From a virus, in IMG/VR virus record IMGVR_UViG_3300048838_001036, positions 1 through 20,660 of that record: 20,660 bases of DNA; one strand, 5' to 3'. Below the pieces are notes generated by a model. The model was not told the DNA's origin, did no database searches, and was given only the letters and a program-made list of their open reading frames with translations. Every line of letters starts with the position of its first letter. Positions within the stretch are counted from its first letter, which is position 1. Positions 642-8,644 of the stretch are shown piece by piece. Made by a program: the position numbers and the translations under genes.

Positions 642-1065
642 AATTGTGGCGGCGAACCTCCCCTATGCGGCCAAGGCCAGCCTCTACAGGATGCCGGGCT
701 ATCGTGCCCAGCGTCATGAGTTTGACCTTGCGTGGCTCATGGGATTTCAAAACCTCATTTTTGCCAGCTTCGCCAATGAGGATGATGGCTTTAAAACCAG
801 AATCCATGAGGCGCAAAAGGCTTTCGCCCAAAGCCTCATGGAGTACGGCGTTCGCAACGCAGAGTTGATCATGCAAGCCTACGTCGCGGGCCGAAAGGAT
901 GCCATGCGCATGCTGAAACAAAGCCCGGTGGAAACCATAGCGTCTGATATCAGTGAGCTGAATACCAAGCTTGCACACTGGGCCAGGGACCTTGAACTCA
1001 AGATGACCGGCAACAGGCGCAAGGTCTATGACAAGCTGAGGAAAGATAATGTGGAAGGTCCTTGA
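622..1065 (+). CDS. Hypothetical phage protein, helical
   Basis: The ATG at 622 has an AAAGG ribosome-binding site at 610-614 with 7-base spacing, so it is preferred over the in-frame ATG at 607. The 147-residue product is alpha-helical by composition (many Ala, Leu, Lys, Glu), with a basic C-terminus (NRRKVYDKLRK). No catalytic motif, Cys cluster or membrane segment is visible. It overlaps the following winged-helix gene by 17 bases. It might be a small structural or nucleic-acid-associated early protein, but no function can be assigned. Confidence 0.65.
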   Translation: MSNPRPEIVAANLPYAAKASLYRMPGYRAQRHEFDLAWLMGFQNLIFASFANEDDGFKTRIHEAQKAFAQSLMEYGVRNAELIMQAYVAGRKDAMRMLKQSPVETIASDISELNTKLAHWARDLELKMTGNRRKVYDKLRKDNVEGP

Positions 1066-1324
1066 ACAGGCCATGCTGGATAAGGCGGTGAGCTTTGAGG
1101 CTCGATCCCTCTACGTGTTCCTATGCATCAGAAAGTATCGCTCCCCAACCATGAAGGAGATTGCCTACGACACGGGCCTCTCCAACAAGCGGGTGAGCTA
1201 TCTCCTTTCTGAACTGATCGTCAGTGGATGGTTGACAAGGCGCGAGCCGAAGCCTCATAAAATCGTCTACGACTTCGACTACACGGGCCATCCAGCCCTT
1301 CAGCCGCCGAGGTTCAACGCATGA
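1049..1324 (+). CDS. Winged-helix DNA-binding protein
   Basis: This 91-residue protein is little more than one winged helix-turn-helix domain. Residues about 17-30 form helix 1 (FEARSLYVFLCIRK). Residues 32-60 carry the helix-turn-helix with the pattern SPTMKEIAYDTGLSNKRVSYL, where GLS is the turn and NKRVSYLLSELI is the recognition helix. The wing (GWLTRREP) follows. Such domains occur in GntR/MarR-like regulators and in phage replication-initiation helix-turn-helix proteins. A GAGGAAAG ribosome-binding site lies just upstream (1037-1044). Its stop overlaps the next ATG (ATGA at 1321-1324), indicating translational coupling. It could bind the GGAAC operator array at 4765-4830, but nothing in the sequence proves that. 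Confidence 0.8.
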   Translation: MWKVLEQAMLDKAVSFEARSLYVFLCIRKYRSPTMKEIAYDTGLSNKRVSYLLSELIVSGWLTRREPKPHKIVYDFDYTGHPALQPPRFNA

Positions 1325-2788: not shown

Positions 2789-3553
2789 ATGTCGAGGATG
2801 TTTTTCATTCTGCTTTGCCTCCTGTTCCTGGCCTGCGCTCCGCAGGAAACTTCAACCCTCAACTATGCGACGTTCACCCCTGGCCGTGAGGTCATGAAGC
2901 AGTGGTCAGCCTACACGACCATTGAGCGCCGTGGCTGCACGCTGCCCATCCAGCTCTATGCATTCCCAGGCGCTGACGTTCCACCCGAGCAAGGCGCGTT
3001 CGTGCGGAGAGCCGTGGAGAGCGCCGTCAAAGCCTGGGCAAGCGCACCGGCATGGCCATGCACCGCAACGCGCGTTGTCTGGGCAGAGGCGGGCCCTGGC
3101 ACCGTGCAGGTCTACCTGGACCCAACGGTAACGAGGGCCTACACAATCGTCGGGCAGAATCAGGTCTACCTTTCACACGCCAACACCGTGCCCACGGACC
3201 CACTCGCGGAAAGGATTATCCTTCATGAGTTTGGACATATATTCGGACTTGCCGACACGTACTCTGAACCCGGTTATCAGCAGCCCTTGAATCAGCCGCC
3301 CGGAATCATGAACAGGCTATGGGAAGTGAATGGACTTTCCGGGGACGATATCCGCGGAGCCGCCGCCCTCTACGAATACATCAATGGACGCAGGCCCTTC
3401 TGTGACAACGGCTATGTGGTGGGAGCCGCCTATGAGAATGTCAATCGTGTGGCCTTCTGCGTGCCCACGTTTGGACCCAACCAGCCGCCTCCTGACTCCA
3501 CAATCAAAAGCCAGCATGGTATTATCCTGGTCAACCCACTGGAACCTAGCTGA
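2789..3553 (+). CDS. Lipoprotein zinc metalloprotease (metzincin)
   Basis: The 254-residue protein starts 5 bases after AAGGAG (2778-2783). A hydrophobic leader ends at a lipobox-like FLAC with C16 as the acylated residue; +2 is Ala, not Asp, which would direct it to the outer membrane in Gram-negative cells. The catalytic segment H146-E-F-G-H150-I-F-G153-L-A-D156 is the extended metzincin zinc site, followed by a Met-turn (PGIMN, M174) and a matrixin-like end helix (LSGDDIRGAAALYEY). Cys pairs (C50/C91 and two near the C-terminus) may form disulfides outside the cytoplasm. It is expected to cleave a protein at the cell surface; the substrate is unknown. A terminator follows at 3600. A phage structural role is unlikely given the lipid anchor. 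Confidence 0.85.
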   Translation: MSRMFFILLCLLFLACAPQETSTLNYATFTPGREVMKQWSAYTTIERRGCTLPIQLYAFPGADVPPEQGAFVRRAVESAVKAWASAPAWPCTATRVVWAEAGPGTVQVYLDPTVTRAYTIVGQNQVYLSHANTVPTDPLAERIILHEFGHIFGLADTYSEPGYQQPLNQPPGIMNRLWEVNGLSGDDIRGAAALYEYINGRRPFCDNGYVVGAAYENVNRVAFCVPTFGPNQPPPDSTIKSQHGIILVNPLEPS

Positions 3554-3811: not shown

Positions 3812-3995
3812 AATCTCAAGGCTCAGGAGTTATGAAACGGTTCCTTGGCCCTCGCTGTTCACCTTCCAACGATACCAGCCTTTTAACCTTTCCCATATCC
3901 GTCCTCAAAAGACAGACGACTGATTCTGTTACCCCCCAAGGCCAAGGCCCGGAAACGGCTCCGTGTTAAAATACCGGGAAGAGAGGGTCCACCTG

Positions 3996-4154
3996 ATGCT
4001 GAATCTGTTGCCACCGGGACGAACCAAGCGAGCCCTGATCGTCACTGCAGCCCTGGCCATCGTCGCCCAAGGACTCAGTGAGGTCGCCCTTACCTGCGTC
4101 AAGATCCTGAAGGAGCTGTTGCCTTTGATCGCAGGAGGCGGTTATAAATTCTGA
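3996..4154 (+). CDS. Small single-TM membrane protein
   Basis: The ATG at 3996 follows GAGAGGG (about 3981-3987) at workable spacing and gives 52 residues; the upstream in-frame GTG at 3963 lacks such a site. A short basic N-terminus (PPGRTKR) precedes a hydrophobic run, ALIVTAALAIVAQGL, and a second, weaker amphipathic run near the C-terminus. This shape fits a small phage membrane protein such as a holin-like or exclusion protein. No enzyme is adjacent to make a lysis role compelling. Confidence 0.45.
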   Translation: MLNLLPPGRTKRALIVTAALAIVAQGLSEVALTCVKILKELLPLIAGGGYKF

Positions 4155-4247
4155 AACCTTGACCGAAATATCCTGACCTGCTTCTGACAAGCGTGGACGC
4201 CGTTCACGCATGACCATATTCAACCCAGGTTTTTGGAGGTTATTCCG

Positions 4248-4460
4248 ATGACAGAGGCCCTTTACGTGTCCATGTTCACAAGTCCGCAGTCCAGCATGAG
4301 TGAGCGCAAGCGCAGGCTCAAAGCCAAGGTCATGGAAAGGCTGGCACGGTTTGGAATCTACGGAGCCACGGTAACGGCCTTCGCCCTGCAGTCATCGGAC
4401 CCGTCACTTTATGCGGGCATTGCCTCCACAATCTGCCTAGCTCTGGAGTGTTTGAGATGA
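4248..4460 (+). CDS. Small membrane protein, two hydrophobic segments
   Basis: GGAGG (4235-4239) sits 8 bases before the ATG at 4248, a near-ideal ribosome-binding site, giving 70 residues. The N-terminal 32 residues include a strongly basic stretch (SERKRRLKAKVMERL), followed by two hydrophobic segments (FGIYGATVTAFAL and LYAGIASTICLALECL) that could make a short hairpin in the membrane. Its stop overlaps the next start (ATGA). The N-in basic domain plus two short TMs resembles small phage holin or anti-holin-like proteins, but sequence alone cannot establish that. Confidence 0.6.
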   Translation: MTEALYVSMFTSPQSSMSERKRRLKAKVMERLARFGIYGATVTAFALQSSDPSLYAGIASTICLALECLR

Positions 4461-4747
4461 CGTGGGCTCCCAAAGGACCAGTCAAAAGACAGTATTCCCA
4501 CGACCAAGCCAATAAGCCGTTTATCGAGGTTGGCGCTGAAGTGGTATGTCCAAATCCCTTTTGTCGAAAGAGCATAGCCCGCTTTGTTAAGCCGCTAAGG
4601 CAGGGAGAGCGCATCACCTCCCAGCACCTGGTTGGAAATGGAATCTCCTTCGGCGCTGAAATGAAGTGCCAATCGTGCGGTATCCCCTGGTTCCTGATGG
4701 AAACGACGCAGATACATTTGCGCTCGGGATGGATACCCAGGTACTAG
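4457..4747 (+). CDS. Small zinc-ribbon protein
   Basis: The ATG at 4457 overlaps the previous stop as ATGA, with GGAG at 4445-4448; an upstream GTG at 4448 is less likely. The 96-residue product has C31-PNPF-C36 and C71-QS-C74, a plausible four-Cys zinc site with an unusual four-residue first gap. The part between the pairs is basic (RKSIARFVKPLRQGER). No membrane segment is seen although both neighbours are membrane proteins. The function is unknown; a nucleic-acid-binding role is possible. Confidence 0.6.
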   Translation: MTWAPKGPVKRQYSHDQANKPFIEVGAEVVCPNPFCRKSIARFVKPLRQGERITSQHLVGNGISFGAEMKCQSCGIPWFLMETTQIHLRSGWIPRY

Positions 4748-4764
4748 CCCAGGCGGGTTAGACC

Positions 4765-4830
4765 GGAACAGTTCCACCCCGTTCCGGAACAGTTCCGATT
4801 GTGCCGGAACATTGTTTCAGGCAATGGAAC
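4765..4830 (+). promoter_or_regulatory. Array of GGAAC palindromes, probable repressor operators
   Basis: GGAACAGTTCC occurs exactly at 4765-4775 and 4786-4796, and a degenerate copy GGAACATTGTTTC lies at 4806-4818. Their centres (4770, 4791, 4812) are each 21 bases apart, two helical turns. A fourth GGAAC begins at 4826. Further copies occur inside the next gene, GGAACAGGTTCC at 4931-4942 and GGAACAG at 4952, again 21 bases apart. Such phasing is typical of a dimeric regulator binding cooperatively, or of origin iterons. Confidence 0.6.
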
Positions 4831-4840
4831 ACCGTGTAAC
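4812..4840 (+). promoter_or_regulatory. Possible sigma70-like promoter inside the operator array
   Basis: TTGTTT (4812-4817) and TGTAAC (4835-4840) are separated by 17 bases, giving a weak -35/-10 pair with a start near 4847, just before the GGAG of the 4867 gene. The third palindrome covers the -35 and the fourth GGAAC lies in the spacer, so a bound repressor would block it. Each hexamer matches consensus only partly, so the call is tentative. Confidence 0.35.
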
Positions 4841-4866
4841 CATGAGCGAAACACGGAGTTCAACGC

Positions 4867-5676
4867 ATGGCACTCACTCAGGACGAGGCACGGATCTACG
4901 AAACATTGAAACAGGAAGGCGGCGACACATGGAACAGGTTCCGCGCACGCCGGAACAGTCTCGCACGCAGGAAAAACCTTACGGAAGAGGAAGCAATCAA
5001 ACTGGCACTGGAGCCCATCATGCAGACCGGCGACGTTATCAACATCCACCGCAACACTGTGGCACCGCCCGCCACTGAGCACATGAGCCCTGCAGAAATC
5101 CTCGCATGGTCACGCATAGCCGTATGTGCGTTCATGGTCATCCTGACAACCGGATACCAGATCTATGCCCAGCGGGCCCTCTATGCCAACGGGAATGAGG
5201 GACTTTACTTGGCCGCCCTCCTGGACCTCCTGTTGGTCGGTGCCGCCCTGCTTACTCCCGCGGGATGGGCCCTCAGGCTGGCGAAATGGGCCTTCATGGG
5301 CTTCATCGTCCTGCACATGGCCCTGGCCATGGACCGGGCCTCACAACAGATCTCCATGGCCGATAGCCCGCAGATCCAGGAGCGCCGACTTGCGCACGCG
5401 AGGGAAACAAAGCTTCTCGAAACCATACCGACGGGCCGGGTATCTGATCGCCTCGACAAGTCCGCGGACATTGCCCTCATCGAAAAGGAAATCGCACGCC
5501 TGGAGCGCGAGATAAAGGAGGGGCACCGCTTCCTGGGGACCGGGGACGCGGACGTAAAAACACGGGTCCGATGGATAAACCTAGCGGCCCAGTTGTTGTT
5601 CTCACACCTTCTCGGGGTCATGCTCGCGGCTGAGGTTTCACATGGAACACTGCGCAGGCGACTGACAAAAGCCTGA
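4867..5676 (+). CDS. Four-TM membrane protein with cytoplasmic coiled coil
   Basis: GGAG (4855-4858) precedes the ATG by 8 bases. The 269-residue product has a basic soluble N-terminus (1-75), three hydrophobic segments at about 80-99, 113-131 and 136-155, and a charged helical stretch at 165-220 (ALIEKEIARLEREIKEG) likely to be a coiled coil. A last hydrophobic segment lies at 234-256, with a basic tail after it. I recognise no family. It is the first gene after the operator array and probable promoter, so it may be regulated separately from the upstream genes, as superinfection-exclusion or lysogenic conversion proteins often are; that role is inference. Confidence 0.7.
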   Translation: MALTQDEARIYETLKQEGGDTWNRFRARRNSLARRKNLTEEEAIKLALEPIMQTGDVINIHRNTVAPPATEHMSPAEILAWSRIAVCAFMVILTTGYQIYAQRALYANGNEGLYLAALLDLLLVGAALLTPAGWALRLAKWAFMGFIVLHMALAMDRASQQISMADSPQIQERRLAHARETKLLETIPTGRVSDRLDKSADIALIEKEIARLEREIKEGHRFLGTGDADVKTRVRWINLAAQLLFSHLLGVMLAAEVSHGTLRRRLTKA

Positions 5677-5729
5677 CACCCTATCTGCAGGGCTGGCCCG
5701 CTGGTATCATGCTGGCGAGGGAAACGCCT

Positions 5730-6074
5730 ATGCTCAAAATCATCGTGAGGTATTTCGTCATGGACTGGCTCGTCAACATGATCGTCAAGTGGATCCTGGA
5801 GCAGGTAAAGAACGGCACCATTGAGGCCATCGCTGATAAGGCGAAGGCCGTGGTCCTCCCCTGGCTGCGTGACCGCAAGGATGAACTCATTGCCCGCCTC
5901 AAGGAGGAAGCCCGGAAAACCGGAACGCCCATTGATGACGCCTTCGTGGACTGGATTGACATTTTCATTGAGGCCTGGATACCTGACAGCCCGGTGACAC
6001 TCGCCCAGGTTCCGCCGCTCCCTGAGAAATACTGTCAACCCGGTGACGCCGCCTGCCAAACGTCAATTGCATGA
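5730..6074 (+). CDS. Small amphipathic membrane-associated protein
   Basis: The ATG at 5730 has GAGGG (5717-5721) 8 bases upstream and is preferred to the ATG at 5709. The 114-residue product starts with a hydrophobic, aromatic-rich stretch (MLKIIVRYFVMDWLVNMIVKW), then alternating amphipathic helices with Lys/Glu/Arg faces and a Pro-rich C-terminus with two Cys (EKYCQPGDAACQ). It may sit on or in the inner membrane. It ends tail-to-tail with the short-chain dehydrogenase, overlapping its 3' end by 12 bases. No family is recognised. Confidence 0.6.
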   Translation: MLKIIVRYFVMDWLVNMIVKWILEQVKNGTIEAIADKAKAVVLPWLRDRKDELIARLKEEARKTGTPIDDAFVDWIDIFIEAWIPDSPVTLAQVPPLPEKYCQPGDAACQTSIA

Positions 6075-6653
6075 CACCCACGAAACACGCTCGACACGGC
6101 GGTCACTAAGAATCGCCACAATCTCCTGGGCCACCTGCCCGGGAGTCATGAGCGTCCTTTGATCCTCATCAGGAAAAAGACCCCGCCGCATCTTGGTTGC
6201 CGTTCGGCCGATGTTGAGACACCATGCGTCAACGCCCTCTGCAACAAGACATTGCACGAACATTACCAGCCCAGCCTTGGCCGCACAGTACGCGCTCCAG
6301 GTAGCCCTCGGCTTGCGAGCCGCGCTTGAGCCTATGAGGACCACCCGGCACCGGGCATTGCCCTGCAAGGCGGCGTGCGTGACATTGAATTGGCCCAGGA
6401 GGTTCACCTGGATCTGTCGGTGCCAGGAGGAAATTGATCCGCCCGTCACGGCTTCAGGACTGATGACCCCAGCAAATGAGATCAGGATGTCAGGTTTTTC
6501 CATGCTGATTCTGTGCATTCTCACCGGATCTGTCACGTCCAGATCCTTGCTTGTGAACGCCCGAACCGTACACCCATGAAGCAGCGGGGTGAGCTCACGG
6601 GCAATGTCACTGCCAGCGCCAACGATCACGACCTTAGCGGGACTCGATTTCAT
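6063..6653 (-). CDS. Short-chain dehydrogenase/reductase, probable polyol-phosphate-forming reductase
   Basis: The frame is open from 6770, but ATG at 6653 has GGAGG 6 bases upstream and gives 196 residues beginning at the first beta strand. The cofactor loop is VGAGSDIA (11-18), FAG (60-62) replaces NAG, and N84, S109/S110, Y122 and K126 (YCAAK) complete the SDR catalytic set. At 196 residues it is compact versus the usual 250. It overlaps the cytidylyltransferase gene by 20 bases. In Haemophilus Bcs1 an IspD-like domain is fused in this same order to an SDR that reduces ribulose-5-phosphate to ribitol-5-phosphate. By analogy this enzyme may make the polyol phosphate substrate; the actual substrate is not established. 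It is the last gene of the cassette. Confidence 0.85.
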   Translation of the reverse strand: MKSSPAKVVIVGAGSDIARELTPLLHGCTVRAFTSKDLDVTDPVRMHRISMEKPDILISFAGVISPEAVTGGSISSWHRQIQVNLLGQFNVTHAALQGNARCRVVLIGSSAARKPRATWSAYCAAKAGLVMFVQCLVAEGVDAWCLNIGRTATKMRRGLFPDEDQRTLMTPGQVAQEIVAILSDRRVERVSWVSCN

Positions 6654-7230
6654 GCAGGGCCTCCATGACCTCCCGATCGCTGCGCACCGTAAGCTTGTGC
6701 GCCGTTCGCCAGTCGCCAGGAAGCACTGCACAGCGGTCACGATATCGAATGCAGGCAAGGCTGAACTCATCGTTCACCCAGTTCTCGCAGTCCTCATTCA
6801 TGAGCCTTCGCAGGAAGGCATGATTAAAGGCCTGTGGCGTATGAATCTCATAGGATGCGTGGCGGACGATTGGCTGATTCAGGTGGAAGTTATAAACGGA
6901 ATTGACCAAGGGAACACCGTATGCAACGGCGTCCGCCTCGGCCTTCAATATGGCTAAGAATTGGCTTGTGCTCACGAGGAACCTTGCACCTTCAGCAATG
7001 ATAACACGCTCCACCTCATCAGGAAGCGTGGCCAATCCAGCAAGCACGGTTTCACGCCTTGTCACCCCACCCGGCACGTCAACGCCCATGACCGTGATGC
7101 CGTCCACCACCATGGAAAGCCTGTCCCTGACTATCTCCCAAGGCCGCTGGCCCTCAATGAAGATCTGCATTTTATCCGTTCCAAAGCGTTCGCCGCGTCC
7201 AGCGGCCAGGATCAAGGCGTGCGTTTTCAT
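6634..7230 (-). CDS. IspD/TarI-like cytidylyltransferase
   Basis: The 198-residue protein carries the family motifs in order: LAAGRGERFGTDK (8-20, with R15 and K20), GGVTRRETVLAGL (54-66), EGAR (80-83, equivalent to the DAAR of IspD), TPQAF (131-135), NDEFS (153-157) and HKLTVRSD (178-185, K179). These correspond to the CTP-binding and catalytic residues of IspD (MEP cytidylyltransferase) and TarI/Bcs1 (ribitol-5-phosphate cytidylyltransferase). It is about 30-40 residues shorter than IspD, mostly lost between the first motif and GG. Overlaps with a TagF-type transferase (4 bases) and an SDR (20 bases) favour CDP-polyol synthesis over isoprenoid synthesis. It is cytoplasmic. Confidence 0.88.
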   Translation of the reverse strand: MKTHALILAAGRGERFGTDKMQIFIEGQRPWEIVRDRLSMVVDGITVMGVDVPGGVTRRETVLAGLATLPDEVERVIIAEGARFLVSTSQFLAILKAEADAVAYGVPLVNSVYNFHLNQPIVRHASYEIHTPQAFNHAFLRRLMNEDCENWVNDEFSLACIRYRDRCAVLPGDWRTAHKLTVRSDREVMEALHEIESR

Positions 7231-8198
7231 ACGAACAGCTCCCTGATTTTAGTCACGATTTCCGTGCAGTCGTCCTTGATAAAGAGGTTGGGATAGCTCC
7301 CAGGTTGAAACTTCAACTTCGCCAGCTTGATGGTGTTGGCAAGGTTCCTGTCAGGCGGAACGTGGAAAAGATGCTGCGACAGATGCCGGAAATCCTTGGG
7401 AAGATCACGCCCGCCGTTTGGCCCTCCGCGAAGTATGACAATGGGTCTGTCCATTAAGGTGTACTCGCACACCACGGAGCTAAAGTCAGAAATGAGACAA
7501 CTGCTTCGCTTGAACAATTCGTCATAGTTGAAGTACAGCGGGTTGTCTGGCGTTATCAACTCCACGTTTTTATGAGTCCGCCAGAGGCTGCGCAGGCTGT
7601 TCATGAAAGGCTCGGTGCGCTGGTTGATTGGATGCAGCTTGATCATCACCCGCTGGCTGAGCGAGCATACAAGCTCAATGTTGGCTCTCAGGTTGGCGAG
7701 GCCGCTGTCTCTGTGCGTTGGCATGTAAAGCACGGGCCCGCTTTGGTCCCACGGTGGAAGGTCACGATACAGGCTCTCACGGGCAAAGGTCACGCGATGG
7801 ATCTTGTGCGCGTGCTCAGCGTATCGCTGCACGTAAGGCTTCCAGAAATGCTCACCCTGAACCAGGACATGCTCCCAACGCGCAGGGCTCCAGTTGGCGA
7901 GATCAGGCCCTTTGAATGACACGCCGTGAAATATCTGGATCGTGTTGAGCCCGCGAGGATCACCGGCAATCTTTTGATAACAGATCAACACGTTTTTGAT
8001 CTTGCGGGCCCTTATCCCTGACCAAACATGCTCGTCACGCAGGCCATGCACCGCCTCAAGGCCCAGCACGTCGCGGGCATAGATAGCCGTCTCCTTAAGC
8101 GGCGTGAAGATAACCGGCTTGATCTCAGGCATCGCCCGAATCAAGGGCAGGAAATGAGCTATGTATCCATGACTGTTGGCAACGAACGCGACTTCCAT
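7227..8198 (-). CDS. CDP-glycerol/CDP-ribitol phosphotransferase (TagF/TarL family)
   Basis: The 323-residue protein shows the signature motifs of the CDP-glycerol:poly(glycerophosphate) transferase family. These are FHGVSFKG (90-97, with the conserved HG), YMPTHRDSG (158-166), KLHP (187-190), and ISDFSSVVCEYTLMDRP (236-252), the hallmark ISDYSS...RP segment. The two conserved His (H91, H189) match the catalytic histidines of TagF. It lacks the extra N-terminal region of long TagF polymerases, so it resembles single-domain priming or capsule transferases. It would use a CDP-polyol, probably from the adjacent cytidylyltransferase, to add polyol-phosphate to a lipid-linked glycan, LPS, capsule or virion protein at the inner face of the membrane. 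The acceptor is unknown. Confidence 0.88.
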   Translation of the reverse strand: MEVAFVANSHGYIAHFLPLIRAMPEIKPVIFTPLKETAIYARDVLGLEAVHGLRDEHVWSGIRARKIKNVLICYQKIAGDPRGLNTIQIFHGVSFKGPDLANWSPARWEHVLVQGEHFWKPYVQRYAEHAHKIHRVTFARESLYRDLPPWDQSGPVLYMPTHRDSGLANLRANIELVCSLSQRVMIKLHPINQRTEPFMNSLRSLWRTHKNVELITPDNPLYFNYDELFKRSSCLISDFSSVVCEYTLMDRPIVILRGGPNGGRDLPKDFRHLSQHLFHVPPDRNLANTIKLAKLKFQPGSYPNLFIKDDCTEIVTKIRELFV

Positions 8199-8212
8199 TG
8201 GGCCTCCGCAGG

Positions 8213-8644
8213 TTAAGCTTCTCCAAACGCACAGAAGATCAGTTGACGTGGACGGTCGTCGTCCAGCTCAAACACCATGACCCTCTGCCATTTTCCTAAC
8301 TGCAGAATGCCATCAATCATGGGCACCGTAACACTGGAATCCATGAGCAGGCTCTTGATATGGCTGTGCCCGTTGATCGGCTCGTCCATGGGCACGTTCC
8401 GGCAATGGATGTCATCGTGGAGGTAGCTGGCATCCTTCGGCGCGAACTTCTCAAGAGCGTTCTTCGTGTCCTTGAGCAAAAGAGCCTCATTCTCAAAGAC
8501 CTTGATGCCAAGGGTCGTATGCAGGGAACTCACGCATACCAACCCATTGCGCAGGCCCGTTCCCGTGAGCCAGTCGCGGAGCTGTTGCGTTATGTCGATG
8601 ATCTTTTTGCGCGTGTCCAGGCTTACGACAGTCTGTGCGAACAT
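8213..8644 (-). CDS. yjbQ: YjbQ/UPF0047 family protein
   Basis: A strong G-rich ribosome-binding site (8649-8656) sits before ATG 8644, giving 143 residues, the normal family length. Family motifs are complete: SSLHTTLGIKVFENE (39-53), HDDI (76-79), N91-G-H-S-H95, VPMIDGILQLGKWQ (107-120) and RPR (131-133). The conserved His/Asn residues line the metal-binding pocket of the trimeric fold. Members have been linked to weak thiamine-phosphate synthase activity, but the physiological role is unsettled. It is the first gene of the leftward cassette, 14 bases before the phosphotransferase, which suggests a shared role with polyol-phosphate metabolism that is not documented to my knowledge. Confidence 0.92.
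   Translation of the reverse strand: MFAQTVVSLDTRKKIIDITQQLRDWLTGTGLRNGLVCVSSLHTTLGIKVFENEALLLKDTKNALEKFAPKDASYLHDDIHCRNVPMDEPINGHSHIKSLLMDSSVTVPMIDGILQLGKWQRVMVFELDDDRPRQLIFCAFGEA

Follow-up and report, generated by a model that had tools for sequence, protein, structure and literature searches.

Analysis of the window, by which we mean the whole stretch of 20,660 bases under study, revealed that the GGAAC/GTTCC cluster in the gap before the gene at 4867-5676 is a real, non-random cis-element. We tentatively favor, with slightly less than even confidence, the reading that positions 4764-4811 form a binding array in double-stranded DNA, which would serve as an operator in the leader of that gene and be combined with a translational lock further downstream. 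This reading draws on the computed array and its non-randomness, on a match to arrays in Rhodobacterales phages, on helical phasing across that family, and on a conserved occlusion of the ribosome-binding site. The parts of the array are as follows.

4748-4866, plus strand: intergenic gap with the array and a hairpin, placed by the open reading frame list and the gene order of relatives; its flanks are the genes 4448-4747 and 4867-5676.
4764-4811, plus strand: 48-bp core array, with GAAC at 0, +21 and +41 and GTTC at +5, +15 and +26.
4765-4775, no strand: exact palindrome GGAACAGTTCC, copy 1, read from the sequence.
4786-4796, no strand: exact palindrome GGAACAGTTCC, copy 2, read likewise.
4781-4785, minus strand: additional GTTCC half-site, which with copy 2 gives GTTC-N7-GTTC at 4781-4795.
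4806-4818, no strand: degenerate third copy GGAACATTGTTTC, read likewise.

Exact GGAACNGTTCC occurs in the 20,660-base record only at 4765-4775 and 4786-4796, both in the gap before the gene; the two exact palindromes claimed in an earlier, sequence-only reading were thus confirmed, and scanning the whole record yielded no further ones. The near copy that this reading had centered at 4812 is present in degenerate form at 4806-4818, and a GTTCC at 4781-4785, whose presence makes GTTCCGGAACAGTTCC, had been overlooked. GGAAC starts at 4765, 4786, 4806, 4826, 4931 and 4952, so that the proposed stepping by 21 (occasionally 20) bases holds within the gap (21, 20 and 20) but is broken by an interval of 105 before the last pair, itself 21 apart, which lies inside the gene. 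GTTCC is found in the array region at 4771, 4781, 4792 and 4938, and the spacers between the palindrome copies are not duplicated. CGGAAC (seven times) and GGAACA (six times) within 190 bp, counted on both strands, are the two densest hexamer clusters of the window. In 400 dinucleotide shuffles GGAACA reached at most four copies, against the six observed, and one of 400 shuffles contained an identical pair of 11-base palindromes within 30 bp. Hexamer density and shuffles therefore agree with the earlier claim that the array is unlikely by chance.

When public sequences were scanned for palindrome pairs spaced by 18-24 bp, several Rhodobacterales phages emerged whose arrays occupy a single conserved intergenic gap, and a search with the upstream protein family gave 20 loci, most of them with GGAAC/GTTCC arrays in the gap, the protein search itself having begun from loci found by the DNA pattern. 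Most of the public two-palindrome matches were discarded as tandem or coding repeats of unrelated bacteria, and so were most viral matches of the architecture pattern, which have in common one conserved flank resembling a coding motif.

Aligned without gaps, window positions 4764-4811 matched L107 at 37 of 48 positions, L117 and L118 at 36 of 48 each, and L115 at 30 of 48, and no other place in the window scored above 27 in the 48-bp alignment. The L107 prophage occurs in Pelagimonas as well (L030). When L115, L117 and L118, loci reached via protein homology and not via the DNA pattern, were combined into a profile, it found the window with E = 1.9e-8, and its next match outside the array had E = 0.31; the array profiles as a whole matched the window with E = 4.4e-9 and 1.9e-8, as against 0.3-1.1 outside the array. 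The window and L107 share one register (GAAC at 0/+21/+41, GTTC at +5/+15/+26). The arrays of these temperate Rhodobacterales phages (L107, L117, L118, L115, L123 and L149) are like that of the window in register, in sequence, in being intergenic and in lying upstream of a co-directional next gene, but unlike it they have unrelated flanking genes, with a replication-like gene before the array and a purine-rich stretch after it. The array is found once per genome in the Rhodobacterales phages. No homologue of their flanking proteins was found in the window or its relatives, nor was any window protein found in the Rhodobacterales array loci. Convergence is possible, because the half-sites fix about half of the matched positions, and this counts against the operator reading. 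The resemblance of the arrays hints that the host of the window phage may be an alphaproteobacterium; searching 149 genomes from a single Rhodobacterales family with the baseplate hub protein gave no match, a result uninformative for the host.

A literature search on the motif strings returned only unrelated papers, and no publication on these arrays was found. The arrays may represent an undescribed class of phage cis-element, read by one conserved host factor or by the initiator of a resident prophage, through which unrelated phages would share a control or replication switch, but we regard this as doubtful. If one platform does serve unrelated phages of one bacterial group, knowing the binder would reveal a control point common to them, and the 48-bp core could be used directly as a pull-down probe.

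Two further arrangements were observed near replication-like genes. One Rhodobacteraceae genome (G104) has, on two contigs (L140 and L149), dense GGAAC arrays beside a replication-like gene, as a tandem pair whose copies are separated by about 320-340 bp. In L110-L113 the replication-like gene is followed by repeated decamers (CACAGAA/CACGGAA) at a spacing of about 10-11 bp instead of GGAAC arrays, which may be a sister array differing in specificity.

The offsets between half-sites of the same orientation, up to 45 bp and over 11 arrays, fell at 10 (29 times), 11 (9 times), 20 (16 times), 21 (22 times), 30-32 (21 times) and 40-43 (18 times), with 12 elsewhere. Such helical phasing favors a protein on double-stranded DNA. 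Together with the recurrence of the register in unrelated phages, it agrees with the cooperative regulator binding that had been suggested from the sequence. The same palindromes can also be drawn as RNA.

4764-4797, plus strand: two palindromes as one RNA stem-loop, with 6 + 5 pairs around an A-A mismatch (leader fold z -2.17).

We consider it unlikely that the element acts as RNA or as a single strand, with this hairpin in series with 4810-4826 and the ribosome-binding-site hairpin controlling translation, attenuation or mRNA processing, and with the DNA palindromes as a by-product. Against the operator reading, the arrays also fold well as RNA. In favor of an RNA element, the leader of the window has the z of -2.17, all of the family arrays that were folded gave z between -2.4 and -6.2, the second arm complements an altered first arm in L114, L108 and L123 (as read from the sequences), and there is a terminator-like stem at 4792-4810. 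However, an RNA element would not be expected to show helical phasing of half-sites, repeated palindromes yield hairpins for free, the GGAACNGTTCC units have equal centers (A/A or T/T) rather than complementary ones, and the upstream leader of the relatives has no comparable fold (z -0.95 and 0.13). No Rfam match was found.

Under the operator reading, the units of about 21 bp, whose GGAAC/GTTCC half-sites share one helix face, would be occupied cooperatively by a protein acting as a dimer or oligomer, and the core array would be the leader operator of gene 4867-5676. As in the tandem repressor operators of temperate phages, of the lambda OR type, the gap upstream of a gene holds palindromic sites spaced by about two helical turns; unlike in those operators, neither an adjacent repressor gene nor divergent promoters are present, and the half-sites are denser. 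Compared with tandem operators that overlap a promoter, the window has the repeated dyad sites, but the promoter is weak.

The position of the Rhodobacterales array beside a replication-like gene suits an origin equally well, and this too weighs against the operator reading. The array would then consist of initiator-bound iterons of about 21 bp in a replication origin, as may hold in the Rhodobacterales phages; for the window we judge this quite unlikely. In the Rhodobacterales phages the array adjoins a gene matching phrog_22470 'replication protein' (14 of 16 members), and each phage genome has one array of 21-bp units, so that an origin is plausible in those phages. The structural model of the replication-like protein has helices and strands in winged-helix order, and a fold search against solved structures gave no significant match, the better-ranked entries being winged-helix proteins. 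Upstream of the replication-like gene, L117 (1478-1891) encodes a small protein similar to the C-terminal DNA-binding domain of DnaA, as read from the sequence. One window protein deserves mention here.

1049-1324, plus strand: candidate binder, a winged-helix protein of 91 amino acids with weak matches to replication-initiation O-like families.

The weak match of this protein to O-like initiators would favor an origin, as would the finding that relatives without the array are also without a detectable homologue of it. It is possible that the 1049 protein binds the array, their co-occurrence being a single case. No homology between it and the Rhodobacterales flanking proteins was found, and a profile comparison with the replication-like family found nothing. 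Also against an origin, the window has no homologue of the replication-like initiator, no AT-rich stretch (AT of the flanks 0.44-0.48 against a mean of 0.44) and no switch in GC skew, and the syntenic relatives have no palindromes. In comparison with iteron origins, such as lambda ori with its O protein and the Rep iterons of plasmids, the window has units of about 21 bp that recur along one face of the helix but lacks an initiator gene beside the array and an AT-rich stretch. Since the Rhodobacterales array adjoins a gene of a replication-protein family, 'iteron-like' is a fair description of the array, but an origin in the window itself, also proposed earlier, did not find support.

The syntenic relatives, which were located by scanning with the baseplate hub protein (68-71% identical), keep the gene order around the array in G005 (L079-L081), G006 (L084-L085) and G008 (L076-L078). 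Their homologues of the 4867-5676 protein are 35-37% identical, and their gap is about 105 bases long. No palindrome was found in the gap of G005 or G008, which is a further point against the operator reading; exact palindromes elsewhere in G008 (4483 and 9815) are apparently in coding sequence and were taken as chance. However, the gaps of G005 and G008 each contain GTTCC-N5-GTTCC, the sole such pair in each record, followed by ATTCC about 31 bp on and by another GTTCC at about 53 bp, and the window has GTTCC-N5-GTTCC at 4771. A half-site pair is kept in the gap despite differing spacers. Thus the palindromes are not conserved while the spacing of one half-site pair is, and the lack of conserved spacing in relatives that had been named as a refutation was found in part.

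A short tandem duplication without function is highly improbable in our view: the palindromes are missing in the relatives and only two copies are exact, as a duplication would have it, but the same register recurs in unrelated phages and the spacers between the copies are not duplicated. Repression of gene 4867 by host LexA, as an SOS operator at GTTC-N7-GTTC (4781-4795), also appears very unlikely. The GTTC and GAAC forms serve to find LexA sites in Rhodobacterales (PMC6473078), and 4781-4795 is an exact and the only instance of the alphaproteobacterial box GTTC-N7-GTTC in the window. Unlike a LexA box, this instance is built of overlapping palindromes, and the form arises automatically because neighboring palindromes create it. 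Several family arrays (L100, L101, L114 and L119) are without the form.

Downstream of the core array, the leader contains the following.

4827-4861, plus strand: hairpin hiding the Shine-Dalgarno sequence GGAG (4855-4858), from the leader fold; its 5' arm holds most of the 4826 half-site.
4812-4840, plus strand: weak promoter-like hexamers TTGTTT-N17-TGTAAC, read from the sequence and not reported by the consensus scan.
4867-5676, plus strand: gene behind the array, encoding a protein of 269 amino acids with hydrophobic helices and no known family match.

In the leader fold, the stem pairs 4827-4830 with 4858-4861 and 4832-4837 with 4851-4856. The fourth half-site described at 4826 does read GGAAC, but it lies at the base of this hairpin over the Shine-Dalgarno sequence and is mainly a hairpin arm. 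The relatives have another stem, TATCTCC/GGAGATA, at the same place. With gene starts picked by a simple rule and without a gene finder, the predicted accessibility of the Shine-Dalgarno sequence was 0.10 for gene 4867 against at least 0.13 in 19 other window genes, and 0.12 in each of G005 and G008, where it is the least accessible (rank 1 of 34 and 1 of 38). The conservation of this occlusion with unlike stems suggests selection for a translational lock on gene 4867-5676.

The hexamers exist as written in the sequence-only reading, but they match the consensus at only 3/6 and 4/6 positions and are absent from the consensus scan, so that the promoter is at best putative; its weakness also speaks against the operator reading. 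No clear equivalent was seen in the sequence of the relatives. A start about 7 bases past the hexamers (near 4847) would lie inside the hairpin loop, and a transcript from there would be without the 5' arm of the hairpin. On our preferred reading, a read-through mRNA would fold the 4827-4861 hairpin and hide the ribosome-binding site, and gene 4867 would be translated well only from an mRNA starting inside the hairpin, or with the hairpin opened; the array and the lock would presumably be linked as two controls of one gene. In the T4 gene e leader, a stem hides the Shine-Dalgarno sequence, which would become accessible in a transcript begun within that stem (PMC3014915). Like T4 gene e, the window has its Shine-Dalgarno sequence inside a stable stem, kept in relatives and least accessible in three phages; unlike T4 gene e, it has a weak candidate for the late promoter, and its gene belongs to no known family. 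The conserved hairpin adds a testable timing control of the T4 gene e kind in a lineage known only from metagenomes.

The array had also been described as extending into the next gene.

4931-4962, plus strand: two GGAAC look-alikes, not counted as sites, which encode the conserved W[ND]RFRARRN.

The window protein reads W-N-R-F-R-A-R-R-N and the relatives W-D-R-F-R-A-R-R-N with codons that lack GGAAC. Because the relatives write the same motif without GGAAC, the copies at 4931 and 4952 are explained by coding; they score as background with the array profiles (E 0.3-1.1) and were rejected as members of the array. Of the original observation, the intergenic sites therefore stand and the extension into the gene does not. 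The annotated phage collection gave no protein match for 4867 and no DNA match over 3900-6100, and no homology of the 4867 protein to the downstream Rhodobacterales flanking protein was found. Its predicted structure was of low confidence and was left out of the analysis.

Several other genes of the window drew attention. The protein of 2789-3553 (plus strand), encoded near small membrane proteins, has an apparent lipoprotein signal and the zinc-metalloprotease signature HEFGHIFGLAD, and had no curated family match above the cut-off. In place of the window gene at 5709-6074 (plus strand), the relatives (L079:14180-14584) have an unrelated protein whose CCIHDFMY motif is phospholipase A2-like. 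On the minus strand, 6063-8644 holds a module of a short-chain dehydrogenase, an IspD-type cytidylyltransferase, a CDP-glycerol glycerophosphotransferase-like protein and a UPF0047 protein, which is kept in the relatives at 47-62% identity and looks like a polyol-phosphate pathway of surface decoration.
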